A DNA stretch of 64,000 bases from Cellulomonas palmilytica. Lineage in GTDB: Bacteria; Actinomycetota; Actinomycetes; Actinomycetales; Cellulomonadaceae. The number at the start of each line of letters is the position of its first letter. Position 1 is the first letter of the stretch. The position numbers were made by a program, and so were the translations under genes. The stretch covers positions 2,542,001 to 2,606,000 of the forward strand of contig NZ_CP062221.1 in NCBI RefSeq assembly GCF_021590045.1, in the 5' to 3' direction. This document shows positions 8,434 through 33,098 of this stretch, piece after piece. The notes under the pieces are model-generated. The model saw only the letters and a list, made by a program, of their open reading frames with translations. It ran no database searches and had not been told where the DNA came from.

Positions 8434-8526
8434 CTGTCAGACCTTCCGTGGGGGACGTGCACCTGACGCAACCGTGGGTCGTGCGCGGCTGTTCCACGCG
8501 GGGCCCGGCGGCGAATCGTTTCGGGA

Positions 8527-8541
8527 GGGAACGCGCTTCCC
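8527..8541. promoter_or_regulatory. LacI-type operator candidate before the PL11 lyase
   Basis: GGGAACGCGCTTCCC, five-base arms GGGAA/TTCCC around CGCGC. It lies 46 bases before the lyase start and resembles the sites before the GH6 and PL1 genes. Confidence 0.5.
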
Positions 8542-8587
8542 GACGGGTCTTGCGGTCGCCTGTGCACGCTCCCGTACGTTGCGGAGC

Positions 8588-10861
8588 ATGCGACGGACGA
8601 CGACGTACCGGGCACGATCCGCGATGGCACCGGCCGCCCTCGGCGCTGCGGGCGCGCTGGTGGTGGCGGGGCTCGCCGCGAGCCCCGCGACCGCCGCAGC
8701 GGGCTGCTCGGCCTCGTACGCCGTGACGAGCCAGTGGTCCGGCGGGTTCGGCGCGGACGTCGTCGTCCGGAACCTGGGGGACCCGCTGTCCGGCTGGACC
8801 GTCTCCTGGTCCTTCCCGGACGGACAGACCGTGAGCCAGGCCTGGAACGCGACCGTCACGCAGTCCGGCAGCACAGCCACGGCGCGCAACGTCGACTGGA
8901 ACGCGGGCCTCGCGACGGGCGGCTCGGCGTCGTTCGGGTTCATCGGCACGTGGCAGTCGGCCAACGGCGTCCCGACGAGCGTGTCCCTCAACGGGACGCC
9001 CTGCACGGGCGCGGTGTCGCCGACGAGCACACCGACCTCGACCCCGTCGAGCAGCCCCAGCAGCACGCCCTCGCCCACGCCCACGGCGTCACCCACGCCC
9101 GACCCGACCCCGACGAGCACGACCCCGCCCGCGGGCGCGTGGCAGGCCGAACGCCTGGACCGCGGCCTCATCAGCGTGCGGTCCGGCAGCGGCAACCTCG
9201 TGCAGTGGCGGCTGCTCGGTACGGACCCGCGCGACGTCGCGTTCCACGTCTACCGTGACGGCGCGCGCCTGACCGCTTCGCCCCTGACCACCACCACGAG
9301 CTACCTCGACGCGGGCGCCTCGTCGTCGGCGCGCTACACGGTGCGCGCGGTCGTGAACGGGATCGAGCAGGCGGCCTCCGCGGCGAGCCTCACGTTCGCG
9401 AACGGGTACCTGGACGTGCCGATCTCCAAGCCCGGCGGTGACTACACCGCGAACGACGCGAGCGTCGGCGACCTCGACGGGGACGGGGACCTCGACCTCG
9501 TCCTCAAGTGGGACCCGACGAACGCGAAGGACAACTCGCAGTCCGGCGTGACCGGCAACGTGTACCTCGACGGGTACCGGCTCGACGGCACGCGGCTGTG
9601 GCGCATCGACCTGGGCCGCAACATCCGCGCCGGCGCGCACTACACGCAGTTCCAGGTGTACGACTTCGACGGCGACGGGGGAGCGGAGGTCGCAGTCAAG
9701 ACCGCGGACGGCACGCGGTCCGGCACCGGCCAGGTCATCGGCGACGCGAACGCCGACCACCGCAACTCGTCGGGCTACGTGCTGAGCGGTCCCGAGTACT
9801 TCACGGTGTTCGAGGGCGCCGACGGCCGGATCGGGGCGACCACGTCGTACGTCCCCGCGCGCGGCACGGTCTCGAGCTGGGGCGACTCGTACGGCAACCG
9901 CGTCGACCGGTTCCTCGCCGGCACCGCGTACCTCGACGGTGTGCGCCCGTCGATCATCATGGCGCGCGGCTACTACACGCGGGCCGTCGTCGTCGCGTGG
10001 GACTACCGCGGCGGCACCCTCACTCGCCGGTGGACGTTCGACTCGAACAGCTCGAGCAGCGGCAACGCGTCCGTCGCGGGACAGGGCAACCACTCGCTCG
10101 CGATCGCGGACGTCGACGCCGACGGGCGTCAGGAGATCCTCTACGGCGCCGCCGCGATCGACGACGACGGGCGCTTCCTGTGGAGCAACGGCACGGGCCA
10201 CGGCGACGCCGGCCATGTGGGCGACCTCATCCCGAGCCGACCCGGCCTCGAGTACTACAAGGTCACCGAGGACACCTCGCAGCCGAACTCGTGGATGGCC
10301 GACGCGCGCACGGGGCAGATCCTGTGGCGTACCGGCTCGGGCAGCGACAACGGCCGCGGCGTCTCCGACGACGTGTGGGCCGGGTCCCCGGGCGCCGAGT
10401 CCTGGTCGTCGTCGGACTCGCAGCTGCGCAGCACGTCCGGCCAGGAGATCGGCCGCAAGCCCTCGTCGGCGAACTTCCTCGCCTGGTGGGACGGCGACCC
10501 GGTGCGCGAGCTGCTCGACCAGACGCGGATCGACAAGTACGGCACGGGCGGCGACACGCGCCTGCTCACGGCCTCCGGGGTGCACTCGAACAACGGCACG
10601 AAGGCCACGCCGTCGCTGTCCGGCGACCTGCTGGGGGACTGGCGCGAGGAGGTCGTCTGGCCGACGAGCGACGACTCCGCGCTGCGCATCTACGCGACCC
10701 CGATCACGACGAGCCTGCGGCTGCCGACCCTGCTGCACGACCAGACGTACCGTGTCGCGATCGCGTGGCAGAACACGGCGTACAACCAGCCGCCGCACAC
10801 CGGCTTCTTCCTCGGCGACGGGTTCAGCGCCCCCGCCTGGCCGGTGATCTACACGCCCTGA
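8588..10861 (+). CDS. Secreted rhamnogalacturonan lyase (PL11) with N-terminal CBM2
   Basis: Extracellular 757-residue enzyme cleaving the rhamnogalacturonan I backbone of pectin by beta-elimination. A signal peptide of about 38 residues ends ATAAA. A family 2 cellulose-binding module follows (about 39-140, paired Cys near both ends), then a Ser/Thr/Pro linker and a PL11 propeller from about residue 180. Asp-rich calcium loops are visible, for example DLDGDGDLDLV, YDFDGDGGAEV and DVDADGRQEI. ATG at 8588 is chosen because it gives a clean twin-Arg-free signal sequence. A LacI-type palindrome lies upstream. The stop overlaps the convergent neighbour by 13 bases. Confidence 0.93.
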   Translation: MRRTTTYRARSAMAPAALGAAGALVVAGLAASPATAAAGCSASYAVTSQWSGGFGADVVVRNLGDPLSGWTVSWSFPDGQTVSQAWNATVTQSGSTATARNVDWNAGLATGGSASFGFIGTWQSANGVPTSVSLNGTPCTGAVSPTSTPTSTPSSSPSSTPSPTPTASPTPDPTPTSTTPPAGAWQAERLDRGLISVRSGSGNLVQWRLLGTDPRDVAFHVYRDGARLTASPLTTTTSYLDAGASSSARYTVRAVVNGIEQAASAASLTFANGYLDVPISKPGGDYTANDASVGDLDGDGDLDLVLKWDPTNAKDNSQSGVTGNVYLDGYRLDGTRLWRIDLGRNIRAGAHYTQFQVYDFDGDGGAEVAVKTADGTRSGTGQVIGDANADHRNSSGYVLSGPEYFTVFEGADGRIGATTSYVPARGTVSSWGDSYGNRVDRFLAGTAYLDGVRPSIIMARGYYTRAVVVAWDYRGGTLTRRWTFDSNSSSSGNASVAGQGNHSLAIADVDADGRQEILYGAAAIDDDGRFLWSNGTGHGDAGHVGDLIPSRPGLEYYKVTEDTSQPNSWMADARTGQILWRTGSGSDNGRGVSDDVWAGSPGAESWSSSDSQLRSTSGQEIGRKPSSANFLAWWDGDPVRELLDQTRIDKYGTGGDTRLLTASGVHSNNGTKATPSLSGDLLGDWREEVVWPTSDDSALRIYATPITTSLRLPTLLHDQTYRVAIAWQNTAYNQPPHTGFFLGDGFSAPAWPVIYTP

Positions 10862-25006: not shown

Positions 25007-27706
25007 TCACAGGTGGGTGCGCACCGGTCCTCCCGCGGCGCGCGCCAGGGCGATGTCCGCCTCGCGCAGCACGGCCGAGACGTCCGCGCAGCCCCGCACG
25101 CTCGGCACGACGCCCACGCGCACGCGTTCGCCCAGCTCGGCCTCGAGGGAGTCGATGACGCGACGCACGCGCATCGGCACGCCCGCACCCGCGGTGTCCT
25201 CGAGGAGCAGCGCGATCTGGTCCTCCGCGATGCGCGCCGCCGTGTCGCCAGCGCGGACCGCGGCCTGCAGCCGCTCCGCGAGCTGCCGGACCGAGAGCGT
25301 CGGCTCGCCGCGCGACACCTGGTCCAGCCCCGGCAGGCGCACCACGACGAGCGCGCAGTCGAACTCGTGCACGCGGTGCGCACGCACGACCGCACCGCCG
25401 AGCCGGTCGAGGAACAGCAGCCGCGTCGCCAGGCCCGTCTCGGACTCGCGCAGCGCGTCCTGCTGCTGCGCGATCTCCGACTGCTTGCGCTCGGTGATGT
25501 CGACGATCGTCCCGACGACCCGCGCCGGGCAGCCCGCGTCGTCGAGCACCGTCATCGCACGGCACATGAGCCAGCGGTACTCGCCCGTCGCGGACCGCAC
25601 GCGGTGCTCGATCTCGAGCGTGGTGTCGACGCCCGCGAGCGTGGCCGCGATCGCGGTGGAGACCTCGTCGCGGTCGGCCGGGTGCACGCGCTCGAGCCAC
25701 TCGGTCGGCGACGAGCCGACGGCCTCGTCGTCGTAGCCGAGCGTCCGCTTCCAGCGCGGCGAGTAGTAGACCGTGCCGGCCGAGACGTCCCAGTCCCACG
25801 TGCCGTCGTCGGCCGCCATCGACGCGAGCGCGTAGTGCTCCTCGCTCGCACGGACGGCGTCGGCGAGCGCCCGCTCGCGCGCGGCGGCCTGCTCGAGCTG
25901 CACCCGCTGCTCGTGCAGGGACTCGAGCATGCTCTGCTGGTCCAGCGCGACGGCGAGCAGCGCCGCCCAGTGGTTGGCCCGGTCGCGTGCCGTGGTGGAG
26001 CGTGCGTCGACGGCGCCCTCGAGGGCGAGCAGCCCCCAGTCGCTGTGCCCGCAGGTCACGGGGACGACGAACGTCGCCTCGGCGGTCATGCCGCCGCGCA
26101 GCATCGCGGCGGGCGGGAACTCCGCGGCCACCGTCCGGCTCCCGACGAGCCGCGCGAGCCCGCCCGAGCCGTCGCGGACCCCCACGATCTCGAGCGGGCG
26201 GTCCGGACCGGTCGTGTCGTCGGCCCAGAGCGCGAGACACGCGCGGCCCCGCAGGGAGCGCGGCAGCCAGTCGAGCGTGCGCGGGTCGGCGCCGTCGCTG
26301 CGCAGCAGGTCGGTCGCCACCTCGTACTGGTGCACCAGCGTCGACTCCAGGCGGCCGGAGCGTTGCAGCAGCGCGGCGGTGCAGCCACGGGTGAGCGCGA
26401 GGATGACCTCGGTGGTCGCGGACTCGACGGCCTCGCGGGCGCGGGCGTCGAGGTCGTCACCGGCGAGCAGCTGGTCGTGCGCGCGGCGCACGACCGCGAC
26501 GAGCAGCTCGAGAGCGTCCGGGTAGGGCTGCAGGCCCGTCGTGAGCTCGGTCAGGCGCGACATCGCGAGGTCCTCGGGCAGCACTCCGCCGCGTGCCGCG
26601 GTGAGCGGCTCGACGACCGCGCGCCACCAGGCCTCCTGGGGCGATCGCCGCTCGTGCCGCTCACCGCCTCGGACGCCGCGGCCGTCGGTGTGGCCGTCGC
26701 GGTGCCCGGCACGCGCCGCGTGCGGCGTCGGCACGGTGACCCGACCGCCCGCGAACGCGGTCCGCACGAGGTCGAGCAGCTCGTCGCGCCAGTCGGTGCC
26801 GGAGTCCTCGATGCGGCGCAGCGGCGTGCACCCGCACGACTCGCGCACCACGAGCGACGTGGGCGTGCGGTGCTCGCCCACGGGCACGGCCTCGCCGCGC
26901 AGACGCGCGAGCAGGAGCCGCACGGCGGCCTCGCCGACGCGGTCGAAGTGCGCGTCGACCGTGGTCAGGCGCGGTGTGAGCCGCGCACCGAAGTCGGCGT
27001 GGTCGAACGCCACGACCGCCTGGTCGCGCGGGACCGACAGCCCGGCCTGACGCAGCCCCGCCACGAAGCCGGACGCGTTGCGGTCGGTCGCGACGACGAC
27101 CGCGGTCGTGCGCATCCCGTCGGCGAGCATGAGCCGGGCGGCGGCCTGGCCACCGGCCTCGTTGTTGTCGCTCGCCGGGTAGACCCAGCCGTCGTCGGGG
27201 GCGATGTCGTTGGCCAGGAGCGTCTCGCGGTAGGCCTCGAATCGTTCCCGCATGTCCCGCTGGTCGAGACAGCCGATGAAGCCGATGGACCGGTGACCGT
27301 GCGCGACGAGGTGCTCGACGGACGCCCGGACGCCGTGCGCGTTGTCCGGCAGGACGACCGGTGCGGTGCCCGCGGACTCGTCCTCGCTGACCAGCACGAC
27401 GGGGATCCCGGAGTGCTCGATGGCGAGCAGCCGGTTCGCCGGGAGGGCCCCCGAGAGGACCACGAGACCGTCCACCGCGTCGATCGCCACGGGGACGTCG
27501 TCCGAGGTCACGACGGGTTCACGCTCGAGTCCGGCGCGGTACGTCTGCACCGCGACCACACGGTGCCCCCCTGCCCGGCACGCGCGTGCCACCCCGGCGA
27601 TGACCGCGCCGAAGTAGAAGCCGCCCACGACGGGGGCGAGCACGCCCACCGTGCGTCGAGCAGGTCCGGGAAGAGGGCCCCGTCGCCCAGGTGTCGCTGC
27701 CGTCAC
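25007..27706 (-). CDS. LacI-type sugar sensor fused to GAF-like, PAS and degenerate GGDEF domains
   Basis: An 899-residue soluble signalling protein. Residues about 17-285 are a LacI/periplasmic-binding-protein sugar domain (RRTVGVLAPVVGGFYFGAVIAGV) without DNA-binding helices or signal peptide, so it senses in the cytoplasm. ESCGC (about 288) is the motif that ends such domains in sensor fusions. A helical and GAF-like part follows, then PAS (about 615-740, WDWDVSAGTVYYSPRWKRTLGY to IVDITERKQ) and a GGDEF fold whose signature is AEDQI, so cyclase activity is not expected. GTG at 27706. It is divergent from a lacI gene and near GH6/GH5 cellulases. Sensing of cellulose breakdown sugar is inferred. 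Confidence 0.88.
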   Translation of the reverse strand: MTAATPGRRGPLPGPARRTVGVLAPVVGGFYFGAVIAGVARACRAGGHRVVAVQTYRAGLEREPVVTSDDVPVAIDAVDGLVVLSGALPANRLLAIEHSGIPVVLVSEDESAGTAPVVLPDNAHGVRASVEHLVAHGHRSIGFIGCLDQRDMRERFEAYRETLLANDIAPDDGWVYPASDNNEAGGQAAARLMLADGMRTTAVVVATDRNASGFVAGLRQAGLSVPRDQAVVAFDHADFGARLTPRLTTVDAHFDRVGEAAVRLLLARLRGEAVPVGEHRTPTSLVVRESCGCTPLRRIEDSGTDWRDELLDLVRTAFAGGRVTVPTPHAARAGHRDGHTDGRGVRGGERHERRSPQEAWWRAVVEPLTAARGGVLPEDLAMSRLTELTTGLQPYPDALELLVAVVRRAHDQLLAGDDLDARAREAVESATTEVILALTRGCTAALLQRSGRLESTLVHQYEVATDLLRSDGADPRTLDWLPRSLRGRACLALWADDTTGPDRPLEIVGVRDGSGGLARLVGSRTVAAEFPPAAMLRGGMTAEATFVVPVTCGHSDWGLLALEGAVDARSTTARDRANHWAALLAVALDQQSMLESLHEQRVQLEQAAARERALADAVRASEEHYALASMAADDGTWDWDVSAGTVYYSPRWKRTLGYDDEAVGSSPTEWLERVHPADRDEVSTAIAATLAGVDTTLEIEHRVRSATGEYRWLMCRAMTVLDDAGCPARVVGTIVDITERKQSEIAQQQDALRESETGLATRLLFLDRLGGAVVRAHRVHEFDCALVVVRLPGLDQVSRGEPTLSVRQLAERLQAAVRAGDTAARIAEDQIALLLEDTAGAGVPMRVRRVIDSLEAELGERVRVGVVPSVRGCADVSAVLREADIALARAAGGPVRTHL

Positions 27707-27772
27707 CGGTCACCCCGTCCACATCGTCGGAGCCGAGATGATGCCATTCGTCCGCATCGGGCGACAGACTAG
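27707..27772. promoter_or_regulatory. Divergent promoter gap, sensor gene and lacI
   Basis: Only 66 bases separate the two divergent starts, so their promoters must overlap. CAGACT at 27765-27770 is a possible -10 box for lacI. No clear LacI-type palindrome like those before the hydrolase genes is seen here. Confidence 0.45.
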
Positions 27773-28819
27773 GTGATCGTGGCAACTCCGGCAGCCCCCA
27801 GATCAGGACGACGACCGACCATCGCCGACGTGGCTCGCGCCGCGGGCGTGTCGACGGCGGTCGTGTCGTACGCCCTCAACGACCGACGCGGTGTCTCCGT
27901 GGCGACTCGGGAACGCGTCCTGCGCGTGGCCGACGAGCTCGGCTGGCGCCCCAACCCCGCCGCACGCTCGATGCGCGCCGGCGCGCAGGCCGTGGGACTC
28001 GCGGTCGTCGCGGGTGAGACGCTGCACGGCGCGCCCGTGCTCGACGTCGTCGCGGTCCTGCAGAGCGCACTGCACGAGCGCGGGCTCGGCGTGGACCTGC
28101 GTGTCGTGCCCGACGTGGCAGCCGCGGCGGAGCTCTACCGCCGCTGGGGCGCGGAACGGCGCTGCGAGGTCGTCGTCGTGCCCGAGGTGCGGGCCGACGA
28201 CGTGCGGCTGCGCGCCGCCGCGGACGCCGGGCTGCGGCCCGTGGCGATCGGCCCCGTCGGCGTCGCACCGGGCCTCGCGGCCGTCGAGGTGGACGACGAG
28301 GAGGCGTACGCGCGCGTCGCGCGGTACCTGCTGGGCCTGGGGCACACGCGGGTCGCGCTCGTGGCCGACCCGGCGGACCGGCTGCGCACCGCGGCGTGCG
28401 AGCGCGGGATGCGCGAGGGGCTGGGCGACGGCGAGGGCTCGGTGGACGTCGTCGTGACGGACGGCAGCGTCGAGGGCGCCGCGGGCGCGACCCGCCGGCT
28501 GCTGACGCAGACCGTGCGTCCGACGGCGGTGGTGCTGGCGAGCGACGTCATGGCGCTCGCCGGTCTGGACGTGGCGCGCCGGACGGGGCTCGTCGTCCCG
28601 TGGGACGTGTCGGTGGTGGCGGGCGCGGACAGCGTGCTGTGCCGGCTCGCGACGCCCGCGCTCACGAGCCTGCCCTCGCTCGCGCACGACCTGGGCGACG
28701 CGCTCGCGGCGGCCGTGACGGGGACGCTCGACGCGGGCGAGGACCCCGAGCCGACGCGCGTCCCGCTGTCGGTGGGTGCGCTCGCGGTGCGCGGGAGCAC
28801 GGCGCCGCACGCGCACTGA
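27773..28819 (+). CDS. LacI-family transcriptional regulator
   Basis: DNA-binding sugar-responsive repressor of 348 residues. The helix-turn-helix and hinge are at the N-terminus (TIADVARAAGVSTAVVSYALNDRRGVSVATRERVLRVADELGWRPNPAARSMRAG), followed by the two-lobed sugar-binding domain. GTG at 27773 is used. A second in-frame GTG two codons later at 27779 is equally possible. It stands between the fused sugar sensor and the GH6 cellulase gene, and the palindrome CGGAACCGCTTCCG precedes the latter. It is therefore the leading candidate to regulate cellulases here. The ligand is unknown, with cello-oligosaccharide likely. Confidence 0.92.
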   Translation: MIVATPAAPRSGRRPTIADVARAAGVSTAVVSYALNDRRGVSVATRERVLRVADELGWRPNPAARSMRAGAQAVGLAVVAGETLHGAPVLDVVAVLQSALHERGLGVDLRVVPDVAAAAELYRRWGAERRCEVVVVPEVRADDVRLRAAADAGLRPVAIGPVGVAPGLAAVEVDDEEAYARVARYLLGLGHTRVALVADPADRLRTAACERGMREGLGDGEGSVDVVVTDGSVEGAAGATRRLLTQTVRPTAVVLASDVMALAGLDVARRTGLVVPWDVSVVAGADSVLCRLATPALTSLPSLAHDLGDALAAAVTGTLDAGEDPEPTRVPLSVGALAVRGSTAPHAH

Positions 28820-28905: not shown

Positions 28906-29051
28906 CGACTGTCCCGTATCCGCGAATCGATTAGGTCGCTCCCGCCGGGATCGCGTAGATGGTGGGTTGAGTCCTGGTCACCGACGACCCCGGCGACCCT
29001 CGCCCGCGCACTGTCGCGCGGGCGTGCCGTTCGACCCACACGGAGGACCAC

Positions 29052-31199
29052 GTGTCCCGACACGGACCCAGCGTCGCCAGGCGACGCCGTCGTACCGTCG
29101 GCGCAGCCACGACGGCCGCACTCGTCGCACTTCCCCTCTCCCTGGCGTTCCTGTCGCCGGCCACGGCCGCCGAGGCGCGCGTCGACAACCCGTACGCCGG
29201 TGCCGTCCAGTACGTGAACCCCACGTGGGCGAACTCGGTGCGCAGCTCGGCCGCCAAGCAGAGCGACGCGTCGCTCGCGGCGAAGATGCAGACCGTCGCC
29301 AAGCAGCCGACCGCCGTCTGGATGGACCGCATCAGCGCCATCACGGGCAACGCGGACGGCAAGGGCCTGAAGTTCCACCTCGACAACGCGGTGCAGCAGC
29401 AGAAGGCCGCGGGCAAGCCGCTGGTCTTCAACCTGGTCATCTACAACCTGCCGGGTCGTGACTGCTACGCGCTCGCCTCGAACGGCGAGCTCCCCGCGAC
29501 GGATGCGGGCTTCGCGCGGTACAAGAGCGAGTACATCGACCCGATCGTCGACCTCCTCGGCCAGCCCGAGTACTCGAACCTGCGGATCTCCGCGACGATC
29601 GAGCCCGACTCGCTGCCGAACCTCATCACCAACATCAGCGAGTCGGCGTGCCAGCAGGCCGCGCCGTACTACCGCCAGGGCGTGAAGTACGCGCTCGACG
29701 AGCTGTACTCGCTGGGCAACGTCTACAGCTACATCGACATCGGCCACTCCGGCTGGCTCGGCTGGGACTCGAACGCGGGCCCGTCGGCGAAGATCTTCGC
29801 CGAGGTCGCCAAGTCGACCAAGGCCGGCTTCGCGTCGATCACGGGCTTCGTGTCCGACGTCGCGAACACCACGCCGCTCGTCGAGCCGTTCCTCACGGAC
29901 CCGACGCTCAACATCGGTGGCAACCCGATCCGCTCGAGCAAGTTCTACGAGTGGAACACGGACTTCGACGAGGCCGACTTCACGGCGCACATGCACCGTC
30001 TGCTGGTCGCCGAGGGCTTCCCGTCGAGCCTCGGCATGCTCGTCGACACCTCGCGCAACGGCTGGGGCGGCCCGAACCGTCCGACGAAGGTCTCGTCGAG
30101 CACGAGCCTCGAGACGTACGTGAACGAGTCGCGCGTCGACCGTCGCGTGCACCGCGGTGCCTGGTGCAACCCGCTCGGCGCGGGCATCGGTGAGCTCCCG
30201 CAGGCGTCGCCGTCCGGCTACAGCGAGTCGCACCTCGACGCGTTCGTCTGGATCAAGCCCCCGGGCGAGTCCGACGGTGCCTCGACGGAGATCGACAACG
30301 ACCAGGGCAAGCGGTTCGACCGCATGTGCGACCCGACGTTCGTCTCGCCGAAGCTGAGCAACAACCTCACGGGCGCCACGCCCAACGCGCCGCTCGCCGG
30401 CCAGTGGTTCGAGGACCAGTTCGTCACGCTCGTGAAGAACGCGTACCCGGCCATCTCCGGCTCGGACGGCCCTGGCCCGGACCCGACGGACGAGCCGACC
30501 GAGGACCCGACGGACGACCCCACGGACGACCCCACGGACGACCCGACGGACGACCCGACCGACGACCCGACGGACGACCCCACTGAGGACCCGACCGACA
30601 CGCAGGCGCCGTCGGTGCCCAGCGGCCTGACGGCCGGCACGGTCACCGAGACCTCCGTGGCGCTGTCCTGGACCGCCTCGACCGACAACGTCGGCGTGAC
30701 GGGCTACGACGTCTACCGCAACGGGTCGAAGGTCGGCTCGTCGTCCGGCACGACGTACTCGGACACCGGCCTGACCGCTGCCACCGCGTACCAGTACTCG
30801 GTCGCCGCGAAGGACGCCGCGGGCAACGTCTCGCAGCGCTCGTCCGCGCTGTCGGTCACGACGAAGTCCCCGGTCACGACCGGCTCGTGCAAGGTCGAGT
30901 ACAACGCGTCGAGCTGGAACACGGGCTTCACCGCCTCGGTCCGGGTGACCAACACCGGCACGACCGCGCTCAACGGCTGGACCCTGACGTTCCCGTTCGC
31001 CAACGGCCAGACGGTCCAGCAGGGCTGGTCGGCTGACTGGAGCCAGTCCGGGACGACCGTGACCGCCAAGAACGCCGCGTGGAACGGGTCGCTGGCCGCC
31101 GGCCAGACCGTCGACATCGGCTTCAACGGTGCGCACAACGGCACGAACAACAAGCCGGCGAGCTTCACGCTCAACGGCGCCACCTGCACCGTCGGGTGA
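29052..31199 (+). CDS. Secreted GH6 cellobiohydrolase with FN3 and CBM2
   Basis: Extracellular 715-residue cellulase that releases cellobiose from chain ends. Signal peptide about 1-40 (ends ATAA). GH6 catalytic domain about 44-475 with both family signatures (VIYNLPGRDCYALASNGE and SATIEPDSLP), plus DIGHSGWLGW and FVWIKPPGESDG. Asp-Pro-Thr linker 476-517, one fibronectin III domain 518-608 and a C-terminal CBM2 about 611-715. The C. fimi CbhA enzyme has three FN3 domains, so this is a shorter relative. GTG at 29052 has GGAGG six bases upstream. A LacI-type site lies in the promoter. Confidence 0.95.
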   Translation: MSRHGPSVARRRRRTVGAATTAALVALPLSLAFLSPATAAEARVDNPYAGAVQYVNPTWANSVRSSAAKQSDASLAAKMQTVAKQPTAVWMDRISAITGNADGKGLKFHLDNAVQQQKAAGKPLVFNLVIYNLPGRDCYALASNGELPATDAGFARYKSEYIDPIVDLLGQPEYSNLRISATIEPDSLPNLITNISESACQQAAPYYRQGVKYALDELYSLGNVYSYIDIGHSGWLGWDSNAGPSAKIFAEVAKSTKAGFASITGFVSDVANTTPLVEPFLTDPTLNIGGNPIRSSKFYEWNTDFDEADFTAHMHRLLVAEGFPSSLGMLVDTSRNGWGGPNRPTKVSSSTSLETYVNESRVDRRVHRGAWCNPLGAGIGELPQASPSGYSESHLDAFVWIKPPGESDGASTEIDNDQGKRFDRMCDPTFVSPKLSNNLTGATPNAPLAGQWFEDQFVTLVKNAYPAISGSDGPGPDPTDEPTEDPTDDPTDDPTDDPTDDPTDDPTDDPTEDPTDTQAPSVPSGLTAGTVTETSVALSWTASTDNVGVTGYDVYRNGSKVGSSSGTTYSDTGLTAATAYQYSVAAKDAAGNVSQRSSALSVTTKSPVTTGSCKVEYNASSWNTGFTASVRVTNTGTTALNGWTLTFPFANGQTVQQGWSADWSQSGTTVTAKNAAWNGSLAAGQTVDIGFNGAHNGTNNKPASFTLNGATCTVG
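30478..30602 (+). repeat. Asp-Pro-Thr linker repeats in the GH6 gene
   Basis: Twelve-base units of the type GACCCGACGGAC encode repeated DPTD/DPTE. Near-identical units occur in the GH5 gene 2.2 kb away, so recombination between the two linkers is possible. Confidence 0.85.
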
Positions 31200-31205
31200 C
31201 CTCGA

Positions 31206-31241
31206 CCGCGGGCGGTCGTGCTCCGGCACGGCCGCCCGCGG
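31206..31241 (+). terminator. Terminator hairpin after GH6
   Basis: Sixteen-base stem (31206-31221 with 31226-31241, one G-U pair) and a four-base loop, six bases after the stop. A second perfect ten-base stem follows at 31250-31273. Confidence 0.7.
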
Positions 31242-31249
31242 CTCGTCCC

Positions 31250-31273
31250 GCCCGCCGCTCACGAGCGGCGGGC
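31250..31273 (+). other. Second hairpin between GH6 and GH5 genes
   Basis: GCCCGCCGCT-CACG-AGCGGCGGGC. Together with the preceding hairpin it may cause partial termination, so that GH5 is transcribed less than GH6 from the shared promoter. It could also be an RNA stability element. Confidence 0.55.
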
Positions 31274-31319
31274 ACCACCACCGAACGCCCCCGCACCTCA
31301 TGTCCCGACGAGGAGAACC

Positions 31320-33098
31320 GTGTCCGTTCCCGCTTCCGTGACCCGACGACGCTCGCTGCGTGCGCGCGTCGTCGCCGGCATCGCCGCCGTCGCGGCGATC
31401 GCCGCTCCCCTGGCCGTCGCCGCCGCGAGCCCGGTGGCGGCCGCCTCCACCAGCGACTGGCTGCACGTGCAGGGCAACAAGATCGTCGACGAGTCAGGCA
31501 AGGAGGTCTGGCTCACCGGCGCGAACTGGTTCGGCTTCAACGCGACCGAGCGCGTCTTCCACGGCCTGTGGGCGGTGAACCTCGAGGACGTCACCCGCTC
31601 GATGGCGGAGCACGGCATCAACATCGTGCGCGTGCCGATCTCGACCCAGCTGCTGCTCGAGTGGAAGGCCGGCAAGGCGGCGGTCTCCTCGGGCGTCAAC
31701 ACGTACGTGAACCCCGAGCTCGAGGGCAAGACCTCGCTCGAGGTGTTCGACCGCTTCCTCGCGCTGTCGGAGAAGTACGGCCTGAAGGTCATGCTCGACC
31801 TGCACAGCGCGGAGGCCGACAACGCCGGCCACTTCCACCCCGTGTGGTGGAAGGGCACGATCACGGTCGACGACTTCTACGCCGGCTGGGAGTGGGTCAC
31901 GGCCCGCTACAAGAACAACGACACGCTCGTCGCGATGGACATCAAGAACGAGCCGCACGGCACGGCGAGCTCCTCGCCGCGCGCGAAGTGGGACTCGTCG
32001 ACGGACCAGGACAACTTCAAGTACCTCTGCGAGACCACGGGCAAGAAGATCCTCGCGATCAACCCCAAGGTCCTCATCCTGTGCGAGGGCATCGAGGTCT
32101 ATCCCAAGCCGGGCGTCTCGTGGTCGTCGACCAACAACAAGGAGTTCTACGGCACCTGGTGGGGCGGCAACCTGCGCGGCGTCACCGACCACCCGATCAA
32201 GCTCGGTGCGAACCAGCTCGTGTACTCCCCGCACGACTACGGGCCGCTCGTGTTCGAGCAGGACTGGTTCCAGAAGCCGTTCACGAAGGCGACGCTCGAG
32301 TCGGACGTCTGGGACCCGAACTGGCTGTTCATCCACAAGCAGGGCATCGCGCCGCTGCTCATCGGCGAGTGGGGCGGCCGTGTCGGCCAGGACGAGCGTC
32401 AGGACCGCTGGCTGACCGCGCTGCGCGACCTCATGATCGAGCGCCGCATCTCGCACACGTTCTGGTCGCTCAACCCGAACTCGGGTGACACGGGCGGCCT
32501 GCTGCTCGACGACTGGAAGACGTGGGACTCCGCCAAGTACGAGCTGCTCAAGCCCGGCCTGTGGCAGGACGGCGGCAAGTTCGTGAGCCTCGACCACCAG
32601 GTGAAGCTCGGTGGCCCGAACAGCACGACCGGCAAGTCCCTCAGCGAGGTCGGCGACCGGCCGGACCCGACGGACGACCCGACGCAGGACCCGACGGACG
32701 ACCCGACCGAGGATCCCACCGAGGACCCCACGGACGACCCCACCGAGGACCCGACGGACGACCCGACGCAGGACCCGACCGGGTCGTGCACGGTCACCTA
32801 CCAGGCGAACGCGTGGAGCACCGGCATGTCGGTGGGCGTGAAGGTGAAGAACACCGGGACCAGCTCCCTGAACGGCTGGACGCTGCAGTTCACGCTGCCG
32901 TCGGGCCAGAAGCTCGAGCAGGGCTGGAGCGGCACCTGGTCGCAGTCGGGCCAGACGGTGTCCGTGACGAACGCCCCGTGGAACGGCACGCTCGCCGCGG
33001 GCGGGACCGTCGAGGTCGGGTTCAACGGCTCGCACACCGGCTCGTCCACCGCACCGACCGCGTTCACGCTCAACGGCGCGGCCTGCACGACCGCCTGA
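31320..33098 (+). CDS. Secreted GH5 endoglucanase with CBM2
   Basis: Extracellular 592-residue endo-beta-1,4-glucanase. Signal peptide about 1-41. GH5 barrel about 42-440 with acid/base E211 in MDIKNEPHG and nucleophile E350 in LIGEWGG. Asp-Pro-Thr linker about 448-488 and CBM2 about 489-592. GTG at 31320 is supported by AGGAG five bases upstream. The gene follows GH6 with two hairpins in the 120-base gap and has no clear LacI-type site of its own. Read-through from the GH6 promoter or an internal promoter is inferred. It would supply free ends for the GH6 cellobiohydrolase. Confidence 0.95.
   Translation: MSVPASVTRRRSLRARVVAGIAAVAAIAAPLAVAAASPVAAASTSDWLHVQGNKIVDESGKEVWLTGANWFGFNATERVFHGLWAVNLEDVTRSMAEHGINIVRVPISTQLLLEWKAGKAAVSSGVNTYVNPELEGKTSLEVFDRFLALSEKYGLKVMLDLHSAEADNAGHFHPVWWKGTITVDDFYAGWEWVTARYKNNDTLVAMDIKNEPHGTASSSPRAKWDSSTDQDNFKYLCETTGKKILAINPKVLILCEGIEVYPKPGVSWSSTNNKEFYGTWWGGNLRGVTDHPIKLGANQLVYSPHDYGPLVFEQDWFQKPFTKATLESDVWDPNWLFIHKQGIAPLLIGEWGGRVGQDERQDRWLTALRDLMIERRISHTFWSLNPNSGDTGGLLLDDWKTWDSAKYELLKPGLWQDGGKFVSLDHQVKLGGPNSTTGKSLSEVGDRPDPTDDPTQDPTDDPTEDPTEDPTDDPTEDPTDDPTQDPTGSCTVTYQANAWSTGMSVGVKVKNTGTSSLNGWTLQFTLPSGQKLEQGWSGTWSQSGQTVSVTNAPWNGTLAAGGTVEVGFNGSHTGSSTAPTAFTLNGAACTTA
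32664..32782 (+). repeat. Asp-Pro-Thr linker repeats in the GH5 gene
   Basis: About nine DPTD, DPTE and DPTQ units with the same 12-base pattern as the GH6 linker. Confidence 0.85.

Follow-up and report, generated by a model that had tools for sequence, protein, structure and literature searches.

Background

What does a LacI-type sugar sensor without DNA-binding helices, fused to a degenerate GGDEF domain, do when its gene lies back to back with that of a LacI regulator and close to two cellulase genes? This question is raised by a 64,000-nucleotide stretch of the Cellulomonas palmilytica genome (the window), in which the sensor, designated SENS, is encoded divergently from the regulator, designated LACI. 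We lean somewhat towards the view that SENS and LACI each supply half of a single sugar-responsive cellulase switch, with SENS sensing the sugar and acting through LACI. New here are the division of a pocket aspartate between SENS and LACI, a predicted operator between LACI and the neighbouring GH6 gene, and the kinship of SENS with sensor-PAS-GGDEF(-EAL) enzymes. The closest named genome for SENS is that of Cellulomonas uda (98% over the protein), and no treatment of the SENS-LACI protein pair was recognised in the openly licensed PMC literature.

25007..27706, minus strand: SENS, with LacI-type sensor, middle, PAS and degenerate GGDEF domains, 899 aa (open reading frame, codon positions, Pfam, secondary structure)
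26831..27655, minus strand: SENS sugar-binding domain of the LacI/periplasmic-binding-protein type, residues 18-292 (no helix-turn-helix found)
27707..27772, no strand: divergent SENS-LACI gap of 66 bp, without operator core
27773..28819, plus strand: LACI, LacI-family DNA-binding regulator of 348 aa with eroded effector pocket (helix-turn-helix PF00356, E 5.6e-16)

The first-pass annotation of this DNA, made from its letters alone, had described an 899-residue protein with a LacI sugar-binding fold but no DNA-binding helices, divergent from a true lacI gene, and this description stands. The open reading frame (ORF) has the high-GC third codon positions of coding frames. Pfam places Peripla_BP_3 over residues 130-291 of SENS (E 1.4e-33), with Peripla_BP_1 also matching, while the LacI helix-turn-helix (HTH) family PF00356 is not listed at E<=1 in a search whose HMMER filters remove most matches above 0.1.

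The effector pocket is kept in SENS and eroded in LACI

The effector-contact aspartate, at the position that we take to be D274 of Escherichia coli LacI, is present in 82 of 82 SENS proteins and in none of their 82 partner LACI proteins, where the position is occupied by Ser (35), Thr (14), Ala (13), Glu (8), Gly (5), Arg (5) or Asn (2). The same aspartate is found in 18 of the 20 other LacI proteins of the C. palmilytica genome, which served as PF00356 controls, and in all 27 alignable LACI homologues without a SENS partner. Of these homologues 28 were fetched (8 plus 20) and one, L225, was dropped for want of a usable alignment; L215-L233 were classed as unpartnered by their coordinates (another contig, no SENS match, or far away) rather than by their flanks. 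The arginine equivalent to R197 has fared differently, being retained in 82/82 SENS proteins, 57/82 partner LACI proteins, 18/20 other LacI proteins of the genome and 27/27 unpartnered homologues. The SENS pocket, marked by R155 and D235 in every one of the 82 proteins, belongs to a domain that is also matched by fold to LacI-type effector domains.

Constraint has been relaxed over much of the LACI sensor domain. Partner LACI proteins have a mean identity of 86% in the HTH and 48% in the effector domain, against 70% and 53% in the unpartnered homologues. When HTH identity lies between 0.65 and 0.80, the effector domain averages 34% in paired proteins and 50% in unpaired ones, and the figures diverge to 43% and 75% at HTH identities of 0.80-0.95. 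The sugar domain of SENS is better conserved than the effector domain of LACI in 3310 of 3321 genome pairs, these pairs being non-independent. Erosion of the pocket in one protein and its retention in the other is, judged by sequence, the trace that would be left if sensing had moved from LACI to SENS, and the idea of a two-protein sugar-sensing system, advanced in the first-pass annotation, is strengthened by it.

We also considered whether loss of the pocket is a trait of this whole LacI subfamily: the aspartate in all of the unpartnered homologues counters it, though the solved structure 4o5a (discussed below) lacks the residue.

SENS, LACI and a GH6 cellulase gene form a conserved unit

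29052..31199, plus strand: GH6 cellulase with fn3 and CBM2 (domain search)
31218..33098, plus strand: GH5 cellulase with CBM2 (domain search)

Both cellulases had been placed just beyond the lacI gene in the first-pass annotation, and domain searches bear this out; the survey of gene neighbourhoods that it had called for likewise favours a link between SENS and LACI. At E<=1e-60 SENS has matches in 48 of 81 genomes of the genus and an orthologue in 44, the four genomes with only a longer paralogue (G013, G027, G045, G063) being left out of the latter count. A LACI orthologue (E<1e-60) occurs in the same 44 genomes, and four further genomes carry more distant LACI homologues only. GH6 orthologues also number 44, in 43 of the genomes with the SENS-LACI pair and in G034; the pair genome missing from this count, G033, has no more than a short contig at the SENS locus.

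Adjacency is nearly invariant. LACI adjoins SENS in 41 of the 42 genus orthologue loci fetched, the exception being a contig end, and in 40/40 loci fetched from other genera, which were picked from the SENS matches as short, orthologue-like ones. The GH6 gene lies beyond LACI in 41 genus loci and 39 other-genus loci; it is displaced a further 1.7 kb in L103. No LACI match is present in the loci of the longer SENS paralogues (L087-L094). Two named Isoptericola loci contain SENS, LACI and GH6 but not the DEAD helicase, which indicates that the conserved unit is SENS-LACI-GH6 rather than the whole region.

Two side observations concern these loci. The SENS gene seems to be frame-broken in L099 and L134, with a GGDEF-like piece further downstream, and both LACI and GH6 still adjoin it. 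Moreover, a conserved CACACTAGGTGATCGTG-like stretch (window 27757-27775) precedes the LACI start codons in genus loci and might be a leaderless promoter.

An operator-like palindrome precedes the GH6 gene

28922..28935, no strand: GCGAATCGATTAGG, predicted LACI operator upstream of GH6 (motif search, conservation across loci)
8511..8524, no strand: GCGAATCGTTTCGG, a further operator-like site, close to the start of a CBM2-RGL11 rhamnogalacturonan lyase ORF (8474-10861, plus strand; motif search)

Of 81 loci, 69 have the palindrome CNAAWCGWTTM, on either strand, between LACI and GH6, and 74 have a looser core there (AAWCGNTT or AANCGWTT); a search that demanded flanking bases gave 73. The reversed strict and looser patterns occurred in none. 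Genome-wide, C. palmilytica has 25 strand hits of CNAAWCGWTTM at 20 places and no hit of the reversed pattern. Ten of the 20 places adjoin genes with LPMO10, GH5, GH6, GH9, GH12, GH43, GH48, RGL11, pectate lyase or CBM2, and one adjoins a BNR-repeat gene, both as raw counts. The site at the rhamnogalacturonan lyase gene raises the prospect that pectin genes may share the control of the cellulases. In the 44 genomes with the SENS-LACI pair the motif has a median of 21 hits (range 7-35), phylogeny being uncorrected. Two sites with this core lie immediately upstream of another LacI gene (L156-L158; G000 3655702-3655747).

The same core has been described upstream of almost all Cellulomonas flavigena cellulases, as CNAA(T/A)CGNTTANNNA / CNAA(T/A)CGNTTCNNNG, and is called unrelated to CelR in the available text of that report (PMC3377646). 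The CelR site itself, TGGGAGCGCTCCCA, has no match at two or fewer mismatches in the window, the only sequence searched, and this is a weak test, since 0.51 matches would be expected by chance. Control of CelR type through that site is thus unsupported here.

The GGDEF domain of SENS is degenerate

26828..26842, minus strand: SENS ESCGC, residues 289-293 (SCGC in 83/83 orthologues and 28/28 relatives)
25907..26641, minus strand: SENS helical region and GAF-like alpha/beta domain, residues 356-600 (predicted secondary structure; no Pfam family above cut-off)
25493..25804, minus strand: SENS PAS domain, residues 635-738 (Pfam and secondary structure)
25031..25438, minus strand: SENS degenerate GGDEF domain, residues 757-892 (Pfam, secondary structure, orthologue alignment)
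25214..25228, minus strand: SENS AEDQI replacing GGDEF, residues 827-831 (sequence and orthologue comparison)
25244..25255, minus strand: SENS RAGD at the position of the RxxD I-site, residues 818-821 (R and D in 43/43 genus orthologues)

Behind its sugar-binding domain SENS had been read as an ESCGC joint, GAF-like and PAS parts, and a GGDEF fold whose signature is AEDQI. The joint, the PAS part (PAS_3, residues 646-734, 6.8e-19) and the GGDEF fold (residues 757-890, 3.7e-7) are all recovered. The GAF-like part holds to a degree: residues 421-600 have a predicted alpha/beta topology that suggests such a domain, but Pfam recognises no GAF family over the middle of the C. palmilytica protein, and among 48 members GAF_2 matches weakly in two and GAF in one. 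A profile search of the middle region against the PDB gave a single weak match, at the PAS edge; LacI cores fill the match lists of Foldseek and VIA-align, so that fold comparison said little about the middle, the PAS or the GGDEF part. The SCGC of the joint may have a structural, redox or metal-binding role.

The motif GG[DE]EF is present in 26 of 28 relatives outside the SENS clade and in none of 83 SENS orthologues. In all 43 genus orthologues the metal-binding aspartate, kept in 28/28 relatives, has become Arg, the second Gly has become Glu or Asp, and the base-contact Asn has been lost. The loss is not entirely clean, as the metal aspartate persists in 2 of 40 other-genus orthologues and the second base-contact Asp can still be aligned in 32 of the 43 genus orthologues, within the gappy GHQxGD stretch. 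AEDQI, the arginine at the metal position and the complete absence of GG[DE]EF rule out SENS as an active diguanylate cyclase, as the first-pass annotation had supposed in proposing that SENS does not make cyclic di-GMP (c-di-GMP); its further suggestion of an output through GTP binding is weakened by the loss of the metal Asp and the base-contact Asn.

Some lineages have dispensed with the domain altogether. Of 80 orthologues, 16 lack it, their proteins stopping after PAS (L099, L131 and L134, with frame breaks or a contig end, were dropped from the 83, and L085, with its start cut, was kept). No GGDEF-like piece lies within 900 bp downstream of these 16, whereas the same test recovers one in the frame-broken L099 and L134. 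In a tree of the core region, built by a quick method from 78 chosen rows and with long outgroup branches, 56 SENS orthologues form one group (SH-aLRT 100) apart from 22 relatives, and the absence of GGDEF needs five changes, at least four of them by strongly supported branches, or about 4-5 losses. A GGDEF output, or binding of c-di-GMP by this domain, consequently cannot be the mechanism shared by the whole family.

The relatives are sensor-PAS-GGDEF(-EAL) proteins, and an EALxRW motif is visible in 23 of 28. GGDEF is the best-conserved domain among 16 of them (0.57; sugar domain 0.43). At E<=1e-50 SENS has matches in 32 of 396 genomes of the order, 11 of them outside the family, and the loci from these 11 (L186-L196) all retain GGDEF. 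As side observations, the relatives L197 and L198 have AGDEF in place of GGDEF alongside an EAL motif, and L188, a relative with GGDEF and EAL from a different family of the order, has GH6-like and CBM2-like sequence nearby.

Might the degenerate domain have been kept as a receptor? The R and D of the RxxD I-site are intact in 43/43 genus orthologues despite the decay of the catalytic residues, and c-di-GMP is probably made in C. palmilytica, to judge from four other GGDEF genes in its genome (E 1.5e-48 to 9.1e-28). SENS as a c-di-GMP receptor would combine sugar with c-di-GMP at RxxD in the joint control of a partner, and cellulase expression would thereby be linked with attachment or biofilm growth. 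Outside the genus, however, the I-site Arg is found in 2 of 40 orthologues (19 of the 40 being gapped at the position), and the 16 orthologues devoid of the domain are still paired with LACI. Furthermore, in a sample of 22 rows (20 of the genus and two of a near genus) GGDEF has a lower mean identity (0.57) than PAS (0.83) or the sugar domain (0.74), with the GAF-like part at 0.77, the helical region at 0.61 and the linker at 0.38. Such a joint receptor we hold to be unlikely, while c-di-GMP binding is possible as a genus-level extra.

Alternatively, SENS could act on c-di-GMP enzymes instead of LACI: through PAS and the degenerate GGDEF it would pair with active cyclases or phosphodiesterases and adjust them to the sugar supply, and adjacency to LACI would reflect no more than a shared need during growth on cellulose. 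The kinship of SENS with proteins that mostly have GG[DE]EF agrees with this, as do two-hybrid assays, described in the accessible part of PMC5635695, in which CdgI, itself a protein with a degenerate GGDEF, contacts the GGDEF domains of others. Yet the pairing with LACI has survived the separate losses of GGDEF, and the decay of the LACI pocket is left unexplained. We rate this account as highly doubtful.

Weighing a proposed two-protein switch

In the favoured mechanism, LACI would bind CTAAWCGWTTM-type palindromes at GH6 and other plant-wall genes, a role suggested by the conservation of the motif, while the strictly conserved pocket of the HTH-less SENS would do the sensing that the eroded LACI domain would no longer do. 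SENS is predicted to be cytoplasmic and its ligand to be, most likely, a cello-oligosaccharide. Direct contact would carry the state of the ligand from SENS, by way of its helical, GAF-like and PAS part, to LACI, and repression would be set in this way. The GGDEF domain would be a relic, dispensable in several lineages; in Cellulomonas a second input, from c-di-GMP bound at RxxD, may persist. The wider evolutionary proposal, to which we give even chances, is that the LacI repressor of the cellulase regulon in Cellulomonas and related genera was split and its sensing handed to an HTH-less protein. On this proposal the ancestor of that protein would have been a c-di-GMP enzyme responsive to sugar, which shed first EAL, next the cyclase motif and finally, in several lineages, GGDEF altogether, with the Cellulomonas relic perhaps adding a c-di-GMP input.

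Several observations count against this account of SENS and LACI. The strict motif is missing from 12 of 81 loci, and nine of the 20 places in C. palmilytica lie by DUF4956, a transporter, EAL, a further LacI gene (two sites), or genes that have no assignment or were inspected only visually. CNAAWCGWTTM also occurs in the 37 genomes without the pair (median 7, range 0-25, again uncorrected for phylogeny); the 25 hits belong to G034, whose assembly is 89% complete and includes a GH6 gene, and many hits in the listed pairless genomes are CGAATCGATTC, a type also seen at another LacI gene. Given the core in pairless genomes and the two sites by another LacI gene, a second regulator may share it. 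An operator core inside the SENS-LACI gap was sought and rejected, there being none within 110 bases of the SENS start in any of 81 loci. The solved LacI protein nearest to LACI by sequence, 4o5a, has Gly at the aspartate position in a HMMER alignment, so that pocket loss may not require a SENS partner.

The last of these points, together with the empty gap and the R197-equivalent arginine kept by most partner LACI proteins, lends some substance to a third alternative, in which LACI is self-sufficient, its effector changed or dispensed with, while SENS senses independently for a target of its own and is linked to LACI by position only. Against it, the aspartate position of LACI is variable instead of fixed on one new residue, and in the genus sample LACI and SENS co-occur without exception; we regard this alternative as distinctly improbable.

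Comparison with known systems

Among LacI/GalR regulators the natural comparison is CelR of Thermobifida fusca (PDB 5ysz; PMC3377646, as far as its available text extends). The pair described here departs from such regulators in that no HTH was found in SENS and LACI lacks the pocket aspartate, and the predicted operator is CTAAWCGWTTM rather than the CelR site, which the weak test above did not find in the window.

SENS shares with Periplas_BP/LacI-sensor GGDEF(-EAL) proteins, as seen in the relatives fetched, the order of sugar-binding domain, SCGC joint, middle domain, PAS and GGDEF. Periplas_BP has been named a putative c-di-GMP sensory domain whose role is not validated, according to the portion of PMC8846402 available. 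Unlike those proteins, SENS has no EAL, its GGDEF is degenerate or missing, and its LacI-GH6 neighbourhood is fixed. If the proposal is correct, a c-di-GMP enzyme has been turned into a plain sugar-responsive regulator.

The E. coli PdeR-DgcM-MlrA system, as presented in the accessible part of PMC5635695, offers a precedent in which GGDEF/EAL-type proteins steer a transcription factor by direct contact. A similar contact is proposed for SENS and LACI, which this precedent makes plausible without proving it. The E. coli system employs enzymes and a c-di-GMP signal, whereas the signal proposed for SENS is a sugar and its enzymatic part has decayed or disappeared. The outcome would be a LacI-type switch shared by two proteins, an idea that can be put to direct test in culturable cellulose degraders.

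The palindrome between LACI and GH6, lastly, matches the C. flavigena cellulase site, for which the available text of PMC3377646 names no regulator. We propose the SENS-paired LACI for that role; if this is true, the orphan cellulase site of C. flavigena has found its regulator.
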